Source: Candidatus Enterovibrio escicola (GTDB taxonomy: Bacteria > Pseudomonadota > Gammaproteobacteria > Enterobacterales > Vibrionaceae). Taken from it: a DNA stretch of 64,000 nt. The notes beneath the pieces were generated by a model. The model saw nothing but the letters and a program-made list of their open reading frames with translations, was not told the origin of the DNA and ran no database searches. The stretch is taken from positions 62,001 through 126,000 of the forward strand of contig NZ_NBYY01000034.1 of NCBI RefSeq assembly GCF_002464935.1, read 5' to 3'. Positions 144 through 21,459 of this stretch are shown here, piece by piece. The stretch's first letter is position 1. Every line of letters begins with the position of its first letter. The position numbers were made by a program, and so were the translations under genes.

Positions 144-157
144 CCAGTAAAGTATAT

Positions 158-246
158 AACCTCAGATCTGCATAAGCGCTTGCTTAGCAAGCCGAACTTC
201 AAGATGACTAAGTTTGATAAGCAAGCGCTTATGCAGATCTGAGGTT
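158..246. repeat. Palindromic miniature IS982 derivative (copy 1, 89 bp)
   Basis: Two copies of the IS982 right terminus face each other. The left arm starts aacctcagatctgcataag and the right arm ends with its reverse complement, with about 30 bp of subterminal IS982 sequence between them. There is no coding capacity. No clear flanking direct repeat is visible. Related 44-bp forms lie at 3456-3499 and 35,910-35,953. Confidence 0.75.
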
Positions 247-399
247 AACTATGAAAGAATCCATTTTCTATACGGAAATCAACTTATTGAATTCATAACC
301 GACTAATTGCGCAGAATACGTCTTAAAATTACGAAACTTAGATTGATGAAAAGATATAATAATCGTCATTATGTTACTGATTGGAAGGATAAAATGTTT
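247..399. other. Unassigned spacer
   Basis: AT-rich sequence between two IS982-derived pieces. I see no gene and no recognisable element in it. Confidence 0.4.
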
Positions 400-587
400 A
401 TTTCTTGTTTTGAAATCTAAAATCCGGTATTTTTCTAAACAGAAAGGTAAATCTGACAGAAATAGTCGATAATGATAAAAAAGTATCTAACTTATTCATG
501 TTAAAGTATTTTTATAATTGATTATTTGATTCAAACGATCAGATCTCGACTTGGGAAATTAGTTCATTCCTTATGCGCAGATAGGGT
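400..587 (-). mobile_element. IS982 remnant, left end
   Basis: On the minus strand the sequence starts with the IS982 left terminus (aaccctatctgcgcataag) and then encodes a degraded transposase start (MNKLDTF...), matching the MNNLDAVF start seen in better copies. The outer end lies 3 bp beyond the leuS stop codon, so the element abuts the 3' end of leuS directly. Confidence 0.75.
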
Positions 588-590
588 TAA

Positions 591-3014
591 TTATTCATCA
601 GTGAGAACATTGATCCCCCCCCCATAAATATGAATTATTCGTTTTATTTTTTTCCCTTCGAGTGATTCTCTTAGCTCTGAAAGCATTGTTTCTTCATCTT
701 CTTCTTTTTGATGGAAAGAGATGAATTTGCCATTTATCATAAGCTTTATCCTCTTAATAATTTGAGAGGAATTCTGAGGCCACTTTTGTTCATATACGTG
801 TCCTAAATTTCTAGAGAGCGTCCATAACTCGCAACATATGTGTGGTGCAAATGGGTATAGTGTAATGAGAAGCTTTCTTTGGGTTGAAGGAGAAATATTG
901 TTCTCATTCTTCTCTACTACATTGATGAATTCCATGAATGCAGCAACAGCTGTATTGAAGTTGAAGTTCTTAAAGGATCTGTCAACTCTATTGAATGCAA
1001 TTTTCCAAGCATTATCTATTAACTCCACTTTTCCACTATCTAGTTTATTCGATGGTATCGAATATATCGAATAAATACGATTAACTAACCGTTCGCATCC
1101 TTTAATTGAGTTATACTGCCACTTCTTACTTTTTCCCAATGGGCCAATGAACATCATATAGAGACGGAATGTATCAACCCCGTATTTATTAATGACAGTC
1201 TCCGGAGTTACAACGTTTAACAGTGATTTAGACATTTTTGTATGAAAAACTTCAAGTTTTTCACCCGTCTTTTTTGAGACATAACCATCGACTGTAACTT
1301 CCGTTTCATCAACTGGAATAATTCGCCCCGTCTCACTTTGGAAGGCGTCTGCTGTCACAAGTCCTTGATTAAACAGTTTCCTAAACGGTTCCTTAAATGA
1401 AACTAATCCAATATCATATAAAACCTTATGCCAAAATCTTGCATATAGCAGATGCATTGTTGCATGAGCTGCTCCGCCTATATATAAGTCTACTTCTTTC
1501 CAATACTCTAATGCGGCTTCGGAAAATGGTTCAACGTCATTTTTTGGATCCATAAAGCGCAGATAGTACCAGCAAGAACCTGCCCAACTAGGCATAGTGT
1601 CGGTTACCCTAGTTAACTTTTCACCATTTTCTGTTTTCTTAATAACCCACTCTGTTTCCCTAAGCAATGGGCTTTTACCATCTTTGGTTGGAAGGTAACT
1701 CTCTACTTTTGGTAGAGTAATCGGAAGTTCGTTAAGTGATGCTGGTATAATCTTACCACTCTTGTCTTTATAGAGTGGTATAGGCTCACCCCAATAGCGT
1801 TGTCTAGAAAAAATCCAATCATGCAGTCTATAACGTGTGTTAACTTCACCTAATTCATTCTCTTCTATGAATTTGGTTACACTATTACGTGCTATCAGCG
1901 GAGTTAACCCAGTTAGGAAGCTAGAGTTTACTAGTAGTTCCTCTCCTTGGTCATCAGTCTCTATAACTTTAGTGGACGGTAAGCCCATGGACTGAGAAAG
2001 TCGTCGATCACGATCGTCATGTACTGGTACACACATAACGGCTCCTTGACCATAAGAAGACAGAACATAGTTAGAAATTAAAACCGGTAGTTTTTCTTTT
2101 GTCATAGGGTGGATGGCGACAGACCCTGTATGTACACCTACAATTGATTCAACGCTAGCGGAGTTAACTTTATTCAAGCGTGAAATTTGTTCTTCTCTGG
2201 AGAGGGAAATCATCAAATCGGATAAATTAGGGTGCTCGGGAGATATAATTACAGCATTAACACCATAGATGGTTTCTGGTTTAGTTGTAAAAACCTTTAA
2301 ACTATTATCAACACCAACAATATCGAATTTTATATCAGTTCCGGTTGACTTTCCGATCCATTCTCGTTGCATCTTTTTTATGGATTCTGGCCAGTCAAGG
2401 TCATTTAAATCTTCAAGCAATCGTTCAGCGTACTTGGTGATCTTAATAGTCCATTGTTTTAGAGGTTTTCTTATGCACGGATAATCACCACGTTCAGACT
2501 TTCCATCAATTACTTCTTCATTGGCTAGAACAGTTTTTAGCTCCTCACACCACCAAACATATTGCTCTGACTCATATATAAGCCCTCTATCGTATAATTT
2601 CAAGAACAAAAATTGAGTCCATTTATAATAGGACTCCTCACAAGTGGATATTTCACGGCGCCAGTCGTAACTCAGACCCATATTTTTAAGTTGACGTCGG
2701 AAATTATCACAGTTTGTTTTAGTTGATTCTTGTGGACTAATTCCAGTTTTAATAGCGAACTGCTCAGCAGGAAGGCCAAAGGCATCCCAACCCATAGGGT
2801 GTAGAACATTAAAACCACTCATTCGCTTTTTGCGAGCAATTATATCTGAACCTATGTACCCGACAGCATGACCAACATGTAATCCATTTCCTGAAGGGTA
2901 AGGGAACATGTCTAATATGTAGTATTTTGGTTTTTGTGAATTATTGTTTGCTACAAATGCTGAAGAGTCTTCCCAATATTTCTGCCACTTCTCTTTTATA
3001 TACTTTTGATCCAC
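591..3014 (-). CDS. leuS: Leucyl-tRNA synthetase, non-gammaproteobacterial type
   Basis: Class I aminoacyl-tRNA synthetase that charges tRNA-Leu in the cytoplasm. The 807-residue frame looks complete: catalytic HIGH-type motif HVGH near residue 48, a CP1 editing domain with the threonine-rich TTKPET segment and the HDDRD motif, the KMSKS signature (TKMSKSLLN), and a C-terminal tRNA-binding end. The start is GTG with AAGGA about 10 bases upstream. Phrases such as FPYPSGNGLHVGH, VLANEEVIDGKSERG and DLDWPESIK resemble LeuRS of chlamydiae, spirochaetes or Bacteroidetes, not the Vibrio/E. coli protein of about 860 residues. It is not at the native leuS site, where a decayed relic remains (13,683-14,100), so it probably supplies the only LeuRS activity. 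IS982 derivatives lie on both sides. A G9 run sits in the last codons. Function is near certain; foreign origin is a motif-based inference. Confidence 0.95.
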   Translation of the reverse strand: MDQKYIKEKWQKYWEDSSAFVANNNSQKPKYYILDMFPYPSGNGLHVGHAVGYIGSDIIARKKRMSGFNVLHPMGWDAFGLPAEQFAIKTGISPQESTKTNCDNFRRQLKNMGLSYDWRREISTCEESYYKWTQFLFLKLYDRGLIYESEQYVWWCEELKTVLANEEVIDGKSERGDYPCIRKPLKQWTIKITKYAERLLEDLNDLDWPESIKKMQREWIGKSTGTDIKFDIVGVDNSLKVFTTKPETIYGVNAVIISPEHPNLSDLMISLSREEQISRLNKVNSASVESIVGVHTGSVAIHPMTKEKLPVLISNYVLSSYGQGAVMCVPVHDDRDRRLSQSMGLPSTKVIETDDQGEELLVNSSFLTGLTPLIARNSVTKFIEENELGEVNTRYRLHDWIFSRQRYWGEPIPLYKDKSGKIIPASLNELPITLPKVESYLPTKDGKSPLLRETEWVIKKTENGEKLTRVTDTMPSWAGSCWYYLRFMDPKNDVEPFSEAALEYWKEVDLYIGGAAHATMHLLYARFWHKVLYDIGLVSFKEPFRKLFNQGLVTADAFQSETGRIIPVDETEVTVDGYVSKKTGEKLEVFHTKMSKSLLNVVTPETVINKYGVDTFRLYMMFIGPLGKSKKWQYNSIKGCERLVNRIYSIYSIPSNKLDSGKVELIDNAWKIAFNRVDRSFKNFNFNTAVAAFMEFINVVEKNENNISPSTQRKLLITLYPFAPHICCELWTLSRNLGHVYEQKWPQNSSQIIKRIKLMINGKFISFHQKEEDEETMLSELRESLEGKKIKRIIHIYGGGINVLTDE

Positions 3015-3455
3015 TTTAAATTACATCCTTTACTATGTGTATCATGCAAAAATTTAATCATACTCTACTCCCTTACATAATAGGAACTGCTTAGTGTTGA
3101 GTCAATTATGAGTGTCGCACCAAAAATTCTAATTATTCTAGGTTTCACAGATAAAACGGCCGTAGTTTCTGGAATGTTGGCTCTATTCATTCGAGTATAA
3201 GTTATAATTATTGCAGATAGTTTCAGCACAAACGATGCTAACGCAATAGGGTATGAATAGACCTTTTCCTCTAGTCAGATGTATCTTATATATTTTTTCC
3301 AGCTTGTCTTTGATAGCACCACTGCTACCAAGGATAATCAACTAATGAGTGCGAGAGGAGTGGGTTTGATCGCGTACTTTCTTGATTTAAATCGTAACGA
3401 ACGCAATGTTCATTGTTATGTTTAAGGTACAAGCTAGATTGTTAAATATTTAAAT
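3015..3455. other. Non-coding spacer upstream of leuS
   Basis: About 440 bases without a convincing gene. A short open stretch near 3108-3200 (MSVAPKILII...) encodes about 31 hydrophobic residues and then stops. It could be a fragment of a lost membrane protein, but I cannot name it. The leuS promoter would have to lie here. Confidence 0.35.
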
Positions 3456-3499
3456 AACCTCAGATCTGCATAAGCAAGCGCTTATGCAGATCTGAGGTT
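3456..3499. repeat. Perfect 44-bp palindrome from IS982 right ends (copy 2)
   Basis: A nearly perfect inverted repeat of the IS982 right terminus (arms aacctcagatctgcataag), with almost no loop. It is flanked on both sides by atttaaat (3448-3455 and 3500-3507), the size expected for an IS982-type target duplication. That octamer is itself palindromic, so it could instead extend the hairpin. Confidence 0.8.
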
Positions 3500-3696
3500 A
3501 TTTAAATCACAATGAACATATTGAATGCACTTGAATTCAGGTATGACAAAAAAAGATGCACATATACGGCATAATGTAGTGTTGCCACGACTCACATGAT
3601 CAGAAGCTCCTTCCAGGATTGTTGAAATCAGGAAAGGTATCAACATCAGTTAATATAAATGAAAAGAACAAACTACGTTGGGGTGCGCGTAGCACA

Positions 3697-4662
3697 TTAC
3701 TTTATTTCCACACCCATTGCTTGCAGATCAGCATGATAAGAAGAGCGAACAAATGGACCACACGCTGCCTGTGTGAAACCTAGTTCCAAGGCAATCCCTT
3801 TCAGCTCGTCAAACTCACTTGGTGGTGCGTAACGTTTAACGGGTAAGTGATGACGGCTTGGTGCCAAGTATTGTCCGATTGTCAGCATGGTAACGCCGTG
3901 CCTGCGTAGATCTTTTAATACCTCAACGATTTCTTCCTTAGTTTCACCAAGTCCGATCATCAGACCGGATTTTGTCGGTACACTTGGGTGCATTTCATTA
4001 AATTTCTTTAGTAATTTCAGTGACCATTTGTAGTTAGCCCCTGGACGAGCTTCGTAGTATATACGTGGTGCTGTTTCGAGGTTATGGTTGAACACATCGG
4101 GTGGACTCTCTTTTAACAACTTTAATGCTGTGTCCATTCGTCCCCGAAAATCAGGGACTAAAATCTCGATCCTAATTTCTGGATTCAGTATACGAATTGC
4201 TCGGGTACAGTCAGCAAAATGTTGCGCCCCCCCGTCACGAAGATCATCTCGGTCAACCGATGTTACAACCACATACTTTAGTCCCAGATTGCGGATAGTT
4301 TGCGCCAGTTTTATCGGTTCTAGTGCATCTGGTGCATTAGGACGTCCATGTGTAACGTCGCAGAATGGGCATCGTCGGGTACAAATGACACCCAAAATCA
4401 TAAAGGTGGCTGTGCCTTGGTTGAAGCACTCGGAAAGATTTGGACAGGAGGCCTCTTCGCAGACCGAGTGTAGATTATTGTTACGCATGATAGACTTAAT
4501 GTCTTGAATACGTTTTGTATCTGCTGGGAGCTTGATCCTCAACCACTCTGGCTTGTGCTGTCTCTCCTGCTTCTGGATTGGCATATTCTTAACTGGGATG
4601 AGCACCATCTTATCTGCATTACGGTACTTCATGTCTTGTTTTATTTTGGTAGGTTTGCTCAT
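3697..4662 (-). CDS. lipA: Lipoyl synthase
   Basis: Radical SAM enzyme that inserts two sulfurs into protein-bound octanoyl groups to make lipoyl cofactors for pyruvate and 2-oxoglutarate dehydrogenases and the glycine cleavage system. The 321-residue length is normal. The auxiliary cluster cysteines are seen in [12 protein letters not shown] and the radical SAM CxxxCxxC in CTRRCPFC. The C-terminal serine region (FVRSSYHAD) is kept. It lies 26 bp after lipB on the same strand, forming the usual lipB-lipA pair. Confidence 0.97.
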
Positions 4663-11935: not shown

Positions 11936-12964
11936 TCAGTTGATAGGGTCGAGTAGAACCGGATAGCCACACATTTCGATGCAAAGTGCTGTCAACTCAG
12001 GCCAAGGTCGACTATCAAAATCAGTTTTAACCATTATTTCAATATTATACAAATGATGAAGCAGTTCTGCAAGTTTCGGTGACGGGAGCCGATGTAACGT
12101 GGACACTAAAGTTTTTTGACGTGTTTTCCAGACCCTAAAATGATCAAATATTTTGTCTAGTGGCATGCCTGATACCCATAACTCCTGCATTTTAAAAAGT
12201 TGTACGATTTCTTTTTGAATGATTCTGAGCAACAGTGTGATTTCGACGGCTTCAGCTTGGAGTTGCCGAACTATCCGCACAGCTCGATTTACTTTGCCTT
12301 CAATCAGAGCATCGGTGAGTTGAAACAGTGTATAGTGGTTGTGGCGAGACAGTGACTCTTGCAACCGGATCAGTGTTAGTGTGCCATCTGGGTAAAGAAA
12401 TTGGAATTTCATCAGGCTTTGCGATAAGCCTTGCAAGTTGCCTTCGTACCACTGCGCAAGTATTAATACAGACTCATGATCTGGTTTTAAATTGAGGTCA
12501 CGACATCGAGCTTTGATAAAGTTAGGCATTTGTTGGGCATTCGGTGTATTGCAAGGCACATACAGACCGTTTTTGTGGAATAAAGTGAACCACTGTTTCA
12601 ATTCTTGTTTTTTGTTTAAACGTGGTCCATCGAGCACTAGCAAAATATCTTGATGAAGATATGGTTTTAAGGCTTTTAGTGCATTCCCTTGAGTAATGTT
12701 AAGAGAAGTTTCTGGTAGAATTATAATTAGCACCTGTCTGACCGAAAATAGGCTTAAGGCTTGGCAAATTTCGTAAACATCTTGCCAATGTAACTGATTA
12801 TCGATAGTGAATCGGTGTTTTTCAATGAACCCCTGTTGTGCTGACGTTTCAAGTATTGATTGCAGTGATTCTTGTTTAAGTAGTAGTTCGTTTCCAAATA
12901 ATAAATAGGTCTGACATAAACCCTGCGCAAGGTGTCGTCTTAACTGTTCTGGATAGACCCTCAT
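11936..12964 (-). CDS. holA: DNA polymerase III delta subunit
   Basis: Clamp-loader delta subunit of 342 residues that opens the beta sliding clamp. It has the family start MRVYPEQLRRHLAQGLCQTY, the LLFGNELLLKQES segment that contacts the clamp, and the conserved LALCIEMCG-type end. It overlaps the lptE stop by 4 bp (ATGA), so the two are coupled. Confidence 0.95.
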   Translation of the reverse strand: MRVYPEQLRRHLAQGLCQTYLLFGNELLLKQESLQSILETSAQQGFIEKHRFTIDNQLHWQDVYEICQALSLFSVRQVLIIILPETSLNITQGNALKALKPYLHQDILLVLDGPRLNKKQELKQWFTLFHKNGLYVPCNTPNAQQMPNFIKARCRDLNLKPDHESVLILAQWYEGNLQGLSQSLMKFQFLYPDGTLTLIRLQESLSRHNHYTLFQLTDALIEGKVNRAVRIVRQLQAEAVEITLLLRIIQKEIVQLFKMQELWVSGMPLDKIFDHFRVWKTRQKTLVSTLHRLPSPKLAELLHHLYNIEIMVKTDFDSRPWPELTALCIEMCGYPVLLDPIN

Positions 12965-13668
12965 GGGGTTATGTCACTCTCAGTGATTATATTTTTTCCG
13001 TCAGTATCGGCTTGAGGTACTATGTGGCTAGAGAACGAGTTTCCTTCCAGTACCTTGGTTTTATTATAAAGATGAGTTTCAATAGTCCGTACTGTTTTAT
13101 CATCGGCAATACCTTGATACAGTTTACGAAGGTTTTTTTCTTTAATCTCTGTACGTTCAAAGTCTTCAATATATGAGTTTAGGCGAGTGAGTTGTCGCAT
13201 GATCTGCTTAGCTGCTTCGATCCGCATTTCCTGTGAAAGCATGTCTATTTCTACTGATTTAGCTAACGCAGATAATGGATTATCGAGGTAGGTGCGACTC
13301 AGTGTTATGGAAAAAGTATAATTGCTTTTTTTTGGCACCATGACTGTATAGCTAACGGAATAGTTAAATTGCTTCTCTGCTATACGCATGTTTTGGTACA
13401 GTGAAAGTGTACTTTCCCTATACGATTCACTGTTAAGGTGTAGGTTGGCGACACCTTCAGCAGGCGGTACAATATCGATACCATGAAAGAGAAGTTGACG
13501 TTTAATTTTACGGGTGAGTATCCCATATTTGTCAAAACTGGTTACGGATAGTTTTTGAATTTCATCGGGCAGATTATAGCTGCCTCGAAGGTAAAATCCG
13601 CAAGACGAGGTGGCCAACGCGGTCACCATGACTAGTAGGATTCGGAGAGAATGAAATAGTATGCTCAC
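12961..13668 (-). CDS. lptE: LPS-assembly lipoprotein LptE
   Basis: Outer-membrane lipoprotein that plugs the LptD barrel for lipopolysaccharide insertion. The signal peptide has the lipobox ATSSC (Cys 23), followed by GFYLRGSYNLP, the typical LptE start. 235 residues, somewhat longer than the E. coli protein. The 5' end is 14 bp from the stop of the decayed native leuS, preserving the ancestral leuS-lptE join. Confidence 0.93.
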   Translation of the reverse strand: MSILFHSLRILLVMVTALATSSCGFYLRGSYNLPDEIQKLSVTSFDKYGILTRKIKRQLLFHGIDIVPPAEGVANLHLNSESYRESTLSLYQNMRIAEKQFNYSVSYTVMVPKKSNYTFSITLSRTYLDNPLSALAKSVEIDMLSQEMRIEAAKQIMRQLTRLNSYIEDFERTEIKEKNLRKLYQGIADDKTVRTIETHLYNKTKVLEGNSFSSHIVPQADTDGKNIITESDITP

Positions 13669-13682
13669 TATGAGTCTCTGTA

Positions 13683-14100
13683 TTAATCTGTAACACTGTT
13701 AACCAGTTTGCCAAGTACATATAGCACCTCTCAGATGGTTTTCCATTTGGTTAACCTCATGATACGCTTATTATTCTTTGCGATGTCCTTGATGTCATCT
13801 TTAGTCGCATCTTAAACGACCGTAATTTTGGCACGAAGTTTACTATTAACCTGAATAATGATCAACTTCTAGTCTTCGACTATTGCCTCATTATCCCAGA
13901 CTAGTTATGATTGCGTAGTCAACATTCAATTTACCCAGTGCAATCTACAACTCATTGATAATGTGTGTGTGATTGGATAAAGCATGATGGCAATGGCTTT
14001 TAATGCTTTATCATTTCTATTATCCATTATCGTAGCAATCCCTGTGTTGAACGTTTGACGGTGATCAACCTCATCCTCTACTTGAAATGGCTTTGTGTCC
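13683..14100 (-). pseudogene. leuS: C-terminal relic of native gammaproteobacterial leuS
   Basis: Translated in one frame on the minus strand, this stretch reads DEVDHRQTFNTGIATIMDN, MLYPITHTL, then IIIQVNSKLRAKITVV, a stop, DATKDDIKD, and finally EVLYVLGKLVNSV before the terminal stop. These align in order with the end of E. coli/Vibrio LeuRS (RRQTFNTAIAAIMEL, MLNPFTPHI, VVVQVNGKVRAKITV, DATEEQV, VIYVPGKLLN). Five in-frame stops interrupt it, and the upstream part is cut off by an IS91-like end at about 14,110. The location directly before lptE is the native leuS site. Confidence 0.92.
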
Positions 14101-14940: not shown

Positions 14941-15209
14941 CAGGCGCTATAACGCGTACCAATGTTGAAGGACAAACGATTAAGCACGACAATCATACAA
15001 AAATTCACGATATTCTATCAAGTCAAGAATACAGCGAAGTTATTAAGAGCTCAGGGTACCCCTGTGCAAGATACAATAGCTACTATTCAGGTTGGTACAA
15101 GGACGGTGTTGAGCGCAATCTAACTGCGGTACTTTCTAATCAATTACAATCAACGAAAGAACATTCCAGTACTCTGCGTGAAGTTGATCAAACATCTAAA
15201 CAACTAGAT
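14941..15209 (+). pseudogene. Unidentified gene fragment fused to IS91-like remnant
   Basis: The frame that starts in the IS91-like remnant continues into about 85 residues unrelated to it: DILSSQEYSEVIK, GYPCARYNSYYSGWYKDG, and a coiled-coil-like end NQLQSTKEHSSTLREVDQ. It stops exactly at an IS982 left end (15,211). I do not recognise the family. It is probably the tail of a lost chromosomal gene. Confidence 0.35.
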
Positions 15210-15210
15210 T

Positions 15211-16050
15211 AACCTGAACTGCGCATAAAAATGAACTAAATACCCAAGTCTCGATCAGCTTGTTTGAAATAAACTCTTGACTGCACAAGGACTTTGGCAT
15301 GAATAACTTAGACGCTATTTTCGCTATTTTCGCTATTTTCGCTATTTTCGCTATTTTCGCTATTTTCGCTATTTTCGCTATTTTCGCTATTTTCGCTATT
15401 TTCGCTATTTTCGCTGTTTTCGCTGTTTTCGTTGATTTCGACGACTTCTGCCAGACTTTCATCCCTGAATGGGAAAAATACCTCATTTCTTCCTGCATCA
15501 AAGAAAGAAGCCTCCTCGCCTCTCAGTTAGCAAAGTGATGACGATAGTGATAGCCTTTCATCAATCTGGATATCGAGACTTCAAAACCTATTATATCCAC
15601 TTTGTTTGCCGCTACCTCACCAATGAATTTCCTGAATTAGTTAGCTACACGAGGATGCTCAAGCTCATGCAAGGTGTTCTGCTTTGCTTTTACCTCGATC
15701 ACCGTCAGGGATTACCTTCGTTAATTCGTCTAAGCTGCAGGTTTGTTACAACCTACGCATTCTTAGACCTCATGTTTTTAAAAGTAACGCGAAGCGAGAA
15801 AAAGGAATGATAGGGTGGTTCTACGGTTTCAAATTACACCTTATTATCAATGACTAATGTTGCATTATCTCAGTCAAAGTGACGACGGATAACATGGATG
15901 ATAGAAAACCTGTATCGGAAATGGCTGATGAACTTTGGGGTGTTTATACGGAAATAAAGGTTATATTTCTGGTCCATTGGAGCAGGAACTTGCAGACAAG
16001 GGAGTGACACTAATAACGGGTGTAAAAAAATATGAAACTCAAAGTGATGA
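15211..16050 (+). mobile_element. IS982 remnant carrying a tandem-repeat expansion
   Basis: The left terminus aacctgaactgcgcataa starts the element. The transposase start MNNLDA is followed by a 13-unit repeat (15,314-15,430), then by DFDDFCQTFIPEW. After frameshifts come MTIVIAFHQSGYRDFKTYY and the VDDRKPVSE-like segment. The copy ends after MKLKVMKL, where IS256 and other sequence begins. It is inactive. Confidence 0.85.
15314..15430 (+). repeat. 9-bp minisatellite, 13 units
   Basis: Eleven uninterrupted copies of gctattttc (Ala-Ile-Phe) followed by two gctgttttc (Ala-Val-Phe). The array lies in frame inside the IS982 transposase start, where other copies have a single GCTGTTTTC-type unit. 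The gradient at the right edge suggests expansion from the normal GCTGTTTTC GTTGAT sequence. Confidence 0.97.
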
Positions 16051-17963: not shown

Positions 17964-19160
17964 TTGTCTAAGCTGGTTCTTGTTATTAACTGCGGTAGTT
18001 CATCGCTGAAATTTGCTATTATTGACGCTCAAACAGGCGATGAGCACTTAAATGGTCTTGCTGAATGCTTACACTTGCCAGAAGCTCGTATTAAGTGGGA
18101 ATTGGACGGTAAGCACAAAGCTAAGCTCAGCGAAGATGCTGCACATAAAGAAGCTCTGAGCTTCATCGTTGACACCATCCTAGCCTCAAAGCCTAAACTA
18201 GCACAAAAATTATGCGCAGTCGGTCACCGAGTTGTTCACGGTGGCGAGCAATTCACTGCTTCAGTTGTAATTACGGCCGAAGTACTAAAGGGAATTCAAG
18301 AGTGTTCAATTCTTGCTCCTCTTCACAATCCTCCAGCCCTCGAAGGTATCAGTGCAGCACAAGCTGCGTTTCCAGCGCTTAAAAACGTAGCAGTATTCGA
18401 TACCGCGTTTCACCAGTCTATACCTGAAGAAGCATATTTATACGCACTACCATACAAACTATACAAAGAAAATGCTATCCGTCGTTACGGAATGCACGGG
18501 AGTTCTCACCTGTTTATCACTCGCGCTACCGCAAAAATTCTGGGTAAAGAAGAGAAAGATATAAACATCATCAATTGTCACCTAGGTAACGGAGCGTCAG
18601 TATGCGCGATTAAGAATGGTCAGTCTGTTGATACATCTATGGGTTTAACGCCACTGGAAGGTTTGGTCATGGGTACTCGTTCAGGTGACATCGACCCAGC
18701 AATAATTTTTCACCTGCACGATGTACTAGGATACAGTATTAATAAAATCAATACCATACTGACCAAAGAGTCAGGACTGTTAGGTCTGACTGAAGTGACG
18801 TCTGACTGCCGTTTCGTTGAAGAGAACTATGGTCAGAAAGAAGAAGCAACTCGTACAATGAACGTATTATGTCACCGGTTGGCGAAATATATTGCAGGTT
18901 ATACTGCATGTCTGGAAGGCCGTCTGGACGCAATCGTATTCACTGGAGGTATCGGAGAAAACTCGGGAGCAATCCGTGAGCAAGTTCTGAATCGTCTAGG
19001 TTTGCTAGGTATTGAAATAGATCAAAAGCATAACATGGAAGCACGGTTTGGTAATGAAGGTGTTATCACTACTGATAACAGCCGTATACCTGTGATGGTT
19101 ATTTCTACAAACGAAGAACTGATTATCGCACAAGATACTGCGCATCTGTCTACATTTTAA
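17964..19160 (+). CDS. ackA: Acetate kinase
   Basis: Converts acetyl phosphate and ADP to acetate and ATP in the Pta-AckA overflow pathway. The 398-residue protein carries the ASKHA-type nucleotide motifs [13 protein letters not shown] and FTGGIGENS, the substrate region HNPPALEGI, and [20 protein letters not shown]. It appears intact. The start codon is TTG, as judged from the family N-terminus [12 protein letters not shown]. Confidence 0.97.
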
Positions 19161-19302
19161 GGGTTAATTCAGGATGCTATTTACGGCTAGTTTCTCTGAT
19201 TAGCCGTCATCAGTTTGATGATGTTGTTTGTCAAATTAAACACATTTTAAGGAGCTGCCAATCATAGGTTATGCTCCTGCCGTAGTTAAAGAGGAATCAA
19301 CC

Positions 19303-21459
19303 GTGTCCCGTACTATCATGATCATTCCAATCGGTGCTGGTGTAGGCATGACGAGTATCAGCCTCGGTGTACTGCGTGCATTGGAACACACGGGTGTTCG
19401 TGTTTCGTTTTTTAAACCGATCGCACAATCCCGTCACGGCAGCAATCAACCAGACTTGACTACCGCTATTATAGAATCAAACAGTGACATGAAAGTAGCC
19501 TCGCCACTAAGCATGTCGAGTGCTGAAAAACTGATTCGTACCGACAAAACTGACGTTTTGATGGAAGAAATCATAGCACGTTTTCAAAGAGCGATCGCAA
19601 ATACGGACGTGACAGTTATTGAAGGTCTGGTTCCAACACGTAACCACCCGTTCGCGAACCAAGTGAACTATGAGATCGCAAAAACTTTGGACGCTGAAAT
19701 CGTGTTCGTTGCAAGACCAAGTACTGATAATTTAGCACAATTAAAAGAGCATATTGAGATTGCAGTATCTAACTTTGGAGGTTCCAAGAACAAGTACATT
19801 GCTGGTGTCATCATCAATAAACACAATGCGCCTGTCGATGAACACGGACGGACTCGTCCAGATCTTTCTGATATTTTTGATGGACCGACAGCTGCAAGAC
19901 CAACCAACGTGGAAGTGATGGAGATTTTCAATACTAGTCCAATCCGCGTACTAGGTTGTGTACCTTGGAGTATTGATCTAATCGCGACCCGTGCAAGCGA
20001 TCTCGCTGCACATCTTAACGCAGAAATCATTAATGCAGGAGAAATTAAGACTCGTCGAATTAAGAGCGTCACTTTCTGTGCGCGCTCTATTCCGAACATG
20101 GTTGAACATTTCCGTCCAGGATCTCTGCTAGTCACATCAGCAGACCGTCCTGACGTTATCGTTGCAGCTTGCTTGGCAGTTATGAACGGTCTAGAAATTG
20201 GTGCACTGCTACTAACTGGTGGTTACAGTATGCCTGAACAACTTTATGGTCTATGTGCACGGGCGTTTGAATCTGGCTTACCCGTATTCACCACCAAAGG
20301 TAACACTTGGCAAACGTCTCTACACCTTCAAAGCTTTAGCTTAGAGGTGCCTTCTGACGACAAAGAACGTGTTGAGTTTGTTAAAGAACATGTTGCCAGC
20401 CACGTCGATAGTCACTGGATTACGTCTCTGTCTGAGGGATCTACCCGCGAGCGTCGTCTCAGCCCACCAGCATTCCGTTACCAGTTGACTGAACTTGCAC
20501 GTAAGGCATCAAAGCGTATCGTACTGCCTGAAGGTGATGAACCACGTACCGTGAAAGCGGCTACGATCTGTGCTAAACGTAAAATTGCGGAGTGTGTACT
20601 TCTGGGCAATCCAGAAATCATCAAACGTGTTGCAGAACAGCAAGGTGTCACACTGGGTGATGGTATAACAATCATCGATCCAGATACCGTACGTGAGAAA
20701 TACGTTGCACGTCTGGTTGAATTGCGTAAAAACGCAGGTATGACCGAAGTGGTTGCGCGTGAACAGCTGAAAGATACAGTGGTACTAGGTACCATGATGC
20801 TTGAGTCAAATGAAGTATCTGGTCTGGTATCTGGTGCAATTCACACCACAGCAAACACTATACGTCCGCCACTGCAAATCATCAAAACTTCACCTGGTTC
20901 ATCTCTGGTGTCTTCTGTATTCTTCATGCTGCTACCAGAGCAAGTACTAGTCTACGGTGACTGTGCGATTAATCCAGATCCAAATGCAGAACAACTGGCT
21001 GAAATTGCAATTCAATCTGCAGATTCTGCAAAAGCATTCGGTATTGAGCCGCGCGTAGCAATGATCTCATACTCTACTGGTACTTCTGGTCAGGGTGTAG
21101 ACGTTGAAAAAGTACGCGAAGCGACGCTGATAGCACATCAGAAGCGTCCTGATCTGATCATTGACGGCCCTTTGCAGTACGACGCAGCCATCATGGAAAA
21201 TGTAGCAGCTTCTAAAGCACCTAACTCCCCAGTAGCAGGTAAAGCAACGGTATTCATCTTTCCTGACCTGAACACTGGTAATACCACCTATAAAGCAGTA
21301 CAACGTTCTGCAGAACTAGTGTCTATCGGCCCAATGCTGCAGGGAATGCGTAAGCCTGTTAACGACCTATCACGTGGAGCGCTGATAGACGATATAGTCT
21401 ACACCGTAGCACTGACTGCCATTCAAGCGCAACAAGCTGAGGATACGGCATCGGAGTAA
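19303..21459 (+). CDS. pta: Phosphate acetyltransferase
   Basis: Makes acetyl phosphate from acetyl-CoA, upstream of AckA. The 718-residue protein has the long gammaproteobacterial architecture: an N-terminal BioD-like P-loop domain ([14 protein letters not shown]), a DRTGG middle domain, and the C-terminal PTA_PTB catalytic domain from about residue 390 ([33 protein letters not shown]). It starts at GTG 19,303, 142 bp after ackA. Confidence 0.97.

Follow-up and report, generated by a model that had tools for sequence, protein, structure and literature searches.

Probable displacement of the essential leucyl-tRNA synthetase gene by a divergent foreign copy in Candidatus Enterovibrio escacola

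Genes and features at the locus

The window analysed here is a stretch of 64,000 nucleotides from the genome of Candidatus Enterovibrio escacola MJ02, which lives as a symbiont in the light organ of the anglerfish Melanocetus johnsonii (PMC6020299, partial text). Two leuS sequences for leucyl-tRNA synthetase (LeuRS) lie in it, 10.7 kb apart (Table 1). One is an intact gene placed 682 bases downstream of a frame which we take from gene order to be lipA, in the same orientation, and the other is a decayed 3′ end at the native place of the gene, before a frame which by the same gene order is presumably lptE. A reading made earlier from the letters alone (the sequence-only reading) had described an intact leuS of 807 codons with HVGH, KMSKS and editing motifs downstream of lipA, and a relic with five stops before lptE. 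Both descriptions hold for the genes themselves; the reading left out the strand of the intact gene, which is minus, and it missed the loss of a catalytic glutamate that is described below.

Table 1. Coordinates of the genes and elements around the two leuS sequences of the window.
Feature	Coordinates	Strand	Basis or remark
Palindromic repeat element	157..247		repeat comparison within window
Repeat, probable insertion-sequence remnant (inferred)	315..593		extends to the leuS stop codon
Foreign-type leuS, intact	591..3014	minus	807 codons, GTG start; open frame and LeuRS profile match
Codon 516, GCT (Ala), aligned with Glu532 of E. coli LeuRS	1467..1469	minus	alignment and motif comparison
DNA before leuS, 364 bases	3015..3378		matches nothing else in the genome; repeat sequence follows for 75 bases
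Possible ribosome-binding site AAGGAT	3025..3030	minus	10 bases before GTG; read from sequence
Palindromic repeat element, same kind as 157..247, between leuS and lipA	3448..3507		repeat comparison within window
lipA, neighbour of foreign leuS	3697..4662	minus	name from gene order
lptE, neighbour of native leuS	12961..13668	minus	name from gene order
Native leuS relic	13686..14084	minus	3′-terminal 399 bases with five stops in frame, beside lptE

The plus strand across the intact gene is packed with stops and the open frame is that of the minus strand. In 2000 base shuffles of the gene the mean number of in-frame stops was 58.1 and the minimum 33, so the frame is not due to chance. Its product scores 908.9–909.2 bits with the profile TIGR00396 against a curated cut-off of 548.4, which places it among the bacterial LeuRS, and it carries the HVGH signature (HIGH class), KMSKS, the motifs of the editing domain and an anticodon-binding domain. 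The predicted fold has a mean pLDDT of 84.4, and 49 of the 50 solved structures listed as matches to this prediction are LeuRS. The codon-usage z of the gene is 10.0, the highest among 32 frames (next 8.1). Because z rises in longer and more highly expressed genes, with 8.1 for pta and 7.5 for a further long synthetase frame, it is taken as supporting evidence only. A promoter scan gave 8 sites against 13.2 in shuffles and thus no promoter evidence. Nine consecutive C of the plus strand (615–623) lie inside the gene about 7–10 codons before its stop and form a possible slippage site.

Repeats around the gene and soundness of the assembly

The foreign-type leuS is bordered by repeats. The repeat that reaches its stop codon has at least eight other diverged copies in the window, 67–73% identical, and stretches of it resemble conjugative plasmids of Vibrio nigripulchritudo and Proteus penneri. 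The end of the palindromic repeat has 12 matches in the window at up to 3 mismatches, where 0.03 are expected. The genome is reported to be full of transposon remnants (PMC6020299, partial text), and with such remnants abundant genome-wide the flanking repeats need not be the vehicle on which the gene arrived.

When 591–3440 is compared with 142 kb of other sequence of the genome, no 20-mer recurs, and exact repeats of the region reach 45 bases at most. A join made through repeats is thus improbable, and a misassembly around the foreign gene appears unlikely as well. The published coverage of the genome is 58x (PMC6020299, partial text).

Number of LeuRS genes in the genome

The assembly comprises 2,645,619 bases in 39 contigs, with 39 tRNA matches and a listed completeness of 99.73%. 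A whole-genome search with the LeuRS profile gave 11 matches, among which one was above the cut-off (the foreign-type leuS), one was the relic and nine were weak. The weak matches fall in four long frames of 968, 962, 554 and 478 residues; that of 554 residues is MetRS by profile score, and the other three would be further class I synthetases. This search of all 39 contigs found no second LeuRS gene, and hence no intact Vibrio-type leuS elsewhere, in agreement with the sequence-only reading. The foreign protein is present in 1/18 genomes of the genus and, among the matches listed, in 1/150 genomes sampled from the family.

Four leucine tRNA genes are present, with the anticodons CAG, TAG, TAA and GAG. 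The two that were compared with free-living genomes of the genus, TAG (97–98% identical) and CAG (91%), are of native type, so the foreign enzyme would have to serve native tRNAs.

Relic of the native gene and time of its death

The sister symbiont E. luxaltus keeps an intact leuS of 857 codons directly before two frames which we take, from conserved order, to be lptE and holA. No leuS-like frame was found after its lipA in the 3.7 kb read, and the only match of LeuRS length in that genome is the native gene, without a foreign copy. The relic aligns to residues 709–857 of the E. luxaltus LeuRS with identity at 63 of 152 alignment positions. In the other genomes of the genus the native-type leuS is in one piece in 15/17 and in pieces in 2/17. 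These fragmented genes lie at G081:C2:115214-117751 and G078:C60:203180-205719, one of them with a TGA; contamination is listed as 6% for G078 and 5% for G081, and an assembly error is likelier than decay in both.

Identity at the three codon positions between the relic and E. luxaltus is 0.71/0.81/0.59 over 391 aligned bases, and for the same region of an intact pair (E. luxaltus and genome G014) it is 0.79/0.94/0.44. Six genes compared between the two symbionts (holA, mrdA, rodA, rlpA, dacA and lptE, the last over 530/666 bases) gave 0.74–0.81/0.82–0.94/0.47–0.52. The weakened yet persisting codon-position bias of the relic suggests that selection probably still acted on the native gene during much of the period after the two symbionts separated, and that the gene probably died after this split. 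The genes rlpA and holA, which are intact but variable, have second-position identities of 0.82 and 0.84, close to the 0.81 of the relic, and with 391 aligned bases this makes the dating rough.

Beyond the relic the sequence includes a repeat (15208–15338) that is also present beside the foreign leuS. The debris there holds a tandem array (15313–15431) of the 9-base unit CGCTATTTT in 13.2 copies with 99% matches. The genes of acetate kinase and phosphate acetyltransferase are intact beside repeat debris at 17964–21459.

Phylogenetic placement and search for a donor

In a tree of 54 LeuRS rows the foreign protein falls in a 26-row group with support 100/99, apart from the gammaproteobacterial rows. 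The group holds Bacilli, Bacteroidota-type, Tsukamurella (actinobacterial), Mycoplasmopsis, rhizobial-plasmid and viral-contig rows. A second tree of 45 rows, made under a mixture model after removal of several other long branches, gave the same placement (19-row group, 100/99). Forcing the protein together with four Vibrionaceae rows was rejected by the AU test (p=2.1e-34, cost 202 log units), as was forcing it with ten gamma-type rows (p=7.8e-9, cost 146 log units). The protein thus stands outside the Vibrionaceae LeuRS, as the sequence-only reading had expected, and the phylogeny of the resident LeuRS conflicts with that of the organism. These trees and tests show that it is not descended from the sampled Vibrionaceae or gammaproteobacterial LeuRS.

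The end branch of the foreign LeuRS is long (1.13 and 1.75 changes per column in the two trees) and its amino-acid make-up was flagged as odd by the tree program, so its exact place inside the group is unsure. In the 54-row tree the end branch of the native E. luxaltus LeuRS measures only 0.18, which suggests that most of the divergence of the foreign protein predates its arrival and probably arose in the donor lineage.

The sequence-only reading had likened the protein to the LeuRS of chlamydiae, spirochaetes or Bacteroidetes; a donor among these is not shown by the trees, which sample the last of the three groups. The four Bacteroidota-type rows (one named row and three viral-contig rows grouping with it) have no special affinity to the foreign LeuRS, and the row of highest identity is from a Bacillota genome (47–48% over tree columns). 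In full-length blastp the best identities are 42.7–45.0% (Bacillota) and the others fetched are 37–39%; printed identities of 52–55% and 45–48% among the matches listed cover only about the first 555 residues. Bacilli LeuRS thus share the same large side of the tree and the highest identities, but except for a streptococcus-like row they are without the insert that the foreign LeuRS has before KMSKS. A mitochondrial origin was set aside on the GLHVGH form, which presumably speaks against it.

A close donor was not found in 275 plasmid records (best places at most 43.9% identical) or in 63 phage records (all below 60%), nor among the matches listed for 299 genomes of the symbiont's phylum, 369 of its class (323/369 with a match at 1e-100 among the matches listed), 149 of the phylum of genome G442 and 148 of the family of genome G547. 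Patterns specific to the foreign protein gave one locus in genome contigs, in a frame of 683 residues and with 27% identity, and none in viral contigs.

Some other LeuRS genes met in these searches may be recorded here. Three leuS genes on large Rhizobiaceae plasmids (L078, L079 and L080) form their own clade (100/100) within the Bacilli/Bacteroidota-type side, and one of them lies near transposase and traG genes. The Bacillota genome G496 has, among the matches listed, two LeuRS frames of 874 and 821 residues (contigs C14 and C41), and in the tree the one on C14 (L104) falls on the proteobacterial side.

Missing transfer glutamate and function of the enzyme

In the E. coli enzyme D80 and E532 are two conserved residues proposed to assist the transfer of the aminoacyl group (PMC9424281, partial text), and the role of both is also given in PMC5059758 (partial text). 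The foreign LeuRS keeps the counterpart of Asp80 (D77), and the glutamate of its GGxEHA loop is replaced by Ala516. Since either glutamate codon is two changes away from GCT, the alanine is not accounted for by an error in one base. Family and fold are clear and the protein is still filed as LeuRS; what lapses is the standard transfer site.

After strict removal of duplicates, glutamate stands at this position in 60/61 motifs of whole genomes, the exception being the foreign protein, and in 13/13 of plasmids, so that all 73 others have it; many of the whole-genome rows are close kin (Vibrionaceae, one Bacillota family) and are not independent. In viral contigs it was 58/58 in a partly selected sample, and pattern scans of these contigs gave no stretch with the alanine version and 60 with the glutamate version. 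A looser count of 150/151 distinct motifs with glutamate included 60 loci chosen by a pattern that requires it. Of 70 columns that do not vary among the other 53 rows the foreign LeuRS keeps 69, the lost one being the Glu532 column; of the nearly invariant columns it keeps 167/193 (26 departures). The corresponding figures are 165/193 for Mycoplasmopsis (28 departures) and 163/190 for AgnB2 (27 departures).

Leucine charging is essential to cells, and since no other LeuRS was found the foreign enzyme should be active. It would act as an ordinary LeuRS in activation, transfer and editing, with transfer being slower or compensated without the usual glutamate. As a possibility that we put forward tentatively, and regard as somewhat less probable than its contrary, this may be a natural and apparently essential LeuRS that transfers leucine without the glutamate through substrate assistance or a compensating residue, its takeover being tolerated in the slow-growing life of the light organ. 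The lost glutamate and the 26/193 departures could also mark a weak or decaying enzyme.

Loss of the E292–R416 salt bridge (PMC9424281, partial text) was considered as a further peculiarity and was dropped, because the acid is also missing from three other rows and the alignment has gaps in this part. The foreign LeuRS has Val in the E292 column with a shorter loop, and the other rows have Glu (43/53), Asp (7) or Ala (3); R416 appears conserved as R396, with numbering inferred after removing a 20-residue tag.

Comparison with known systems

Orthologous displacement of universal single-copy genes is known, and the table of Creevey et al. 2011 (PMC3151239, partial text) lists 2 events for leucyl-tRNA synthetase, COG0495. 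The same source (partial text) reports larger genomes in acceptors than in donors, and a lower likelihood for distant donors. The present locus is alike in that a housekeeping gene was replaced by a distant homologue; it differs by its shrinking acceptor genome, its distant donor and the persistence of the dead native copy as a visible relic.

AgnB2 of plasmid pAgK84 is an agrocin 84-resistant LeuRS, the self-immunity enzyme of an antibiotic producer (PMC5059758, partial text). It too was acquired and has an unusual active site, but it keeps the glutamate (E528), has KQSKS in place of KMSKS, is 33% identical to the foreign LeuRS and stands elsewhere in the tree. The native LeuRS of E. luxaltus is of the same enzyme family and would do the same job in the cell; it is 37.7% identical to the foreign LeuRS, has LHMGH and carries a different insert before KMSKS. 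The Bacilli LeuRS have the glutamate.

Alternative explanations

That the foreign-type gene is a native Vibrionaceae LeuRS which moved within the gene cluster and then evolved very fast would suit its long end branch, its nearness to the relic and the fast evolution reported for these symbionts (PMC6020299, partial text). It is hardly conceivable in view of the AU test with the Vibrionaceae rows, of the signatures GLHVGH in place of LHMGH and WAGS in place of FMES, which follow those of the opposite side of the tree, and of the separate native relic at the native site. An assembly chimera, in which the leuS of a contaminant was placed between symbiont repeats, is highly improbable: repeats do lie on both sides and nothing else in the genus resembles the gene, but the genome would then hold no LeuRS at all, the repeat at the stop codon is diverged from its other copies and runs right up to that codon, the 20-mer and exact-repeat results argue against such a join, and the published coverage does so too.

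Two other readings accept the gene as foreign. The sequence-only reading had suggested that it was first kept as resistance to a LeuRS inhibitor and that the native gene was displaced later, for which AgnB2 is a precedent (PMC5059758, partial text) and the Ala516 change adjoins the active site. We found no evidence for this and hold it to be very unlikely, given that the foreign LeuRS has neither the KQSKS loop of AgnB2 nor its Thr before the HIGH motif, lies far from it in the tree, is not an extra copy beside a working housekeeping LeuRS, and has no biosynthesis genes known nearby (by no systematic search). That the foreign gene is itself impaired or decaying, with the working LeuRS absent from the assembly, is quite unlikely too. 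The lost glutamate and the departures at nearly invariant columns would fit it; the frame, however, is unbroken over 807 codons where every shuffle has at least 33 stops, all but one of the invariant columns are kept, the departures do not exceed those of Mycoplasmopsis or AgnB2, and the listed completeness is high, with no other LeuRS in the contigs.

Proposed history

Orthologous (xenologous) displacement of the essential leuS in Candidatus Enterovibrio escacola is in our judgement very probably what occurred. The native orthologue is dead here and retained in relatives, and the sequence-only reading, which had a foreign synthetase taking over while the native gene died, is borne out by the trees, the AU tests, the single LeuRS and the relic. 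Its remark that both stages are visible in one window is likewise confirmed by the intact foreign gene and the decayed native tail, and the inspection of the sister locus that it had called for agrees, with an intact native leuS and no foreign copy in E. luxaltus.

In the proposed course of events, a leuS of bacterial origin, from a divergent donor outside the sampled rows, would have entered after the split from E. luxaltus and settled beside lipA among the repeats. The foreign LeuRS would have charged the resident leucine tRNAs and so made the native copy redundant, and this copy may then have been lost through drift and mobile-element traffic, like many genes here. The genome has 974 predicted pseudogenes (PMC6020299, partial text).

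Significance

A search of mostly open-access literature on these symbionts gave no account of such a displacement, and the main texts of PMC6020299 and PMC6773444 mention neither leuS nor a tRNA synthetase. Displacement of a synthetase is known as such; what sets this variant apart, in a form open to testing, is the combination of a visible dead native copy, a shrinking genome and an odd active site. As a rule, takeovers of universal essential genes are inferred only well after they took place. Here the foreign newcomer, the native gene in decay and the intact genome of the sister symbiont can be set side by side. The acceptor is a host-associated bacterium that is losing genes, which on the published trends would be an unlikely acceptor (PMC3151239, partial text). 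If it is true that the enzyme works without the transfer glutamate, it would provide a natural test of the role of this residue, and the missing catalytic glutamate in a seemingly indispensable enzyme is the part most worth an experiment.
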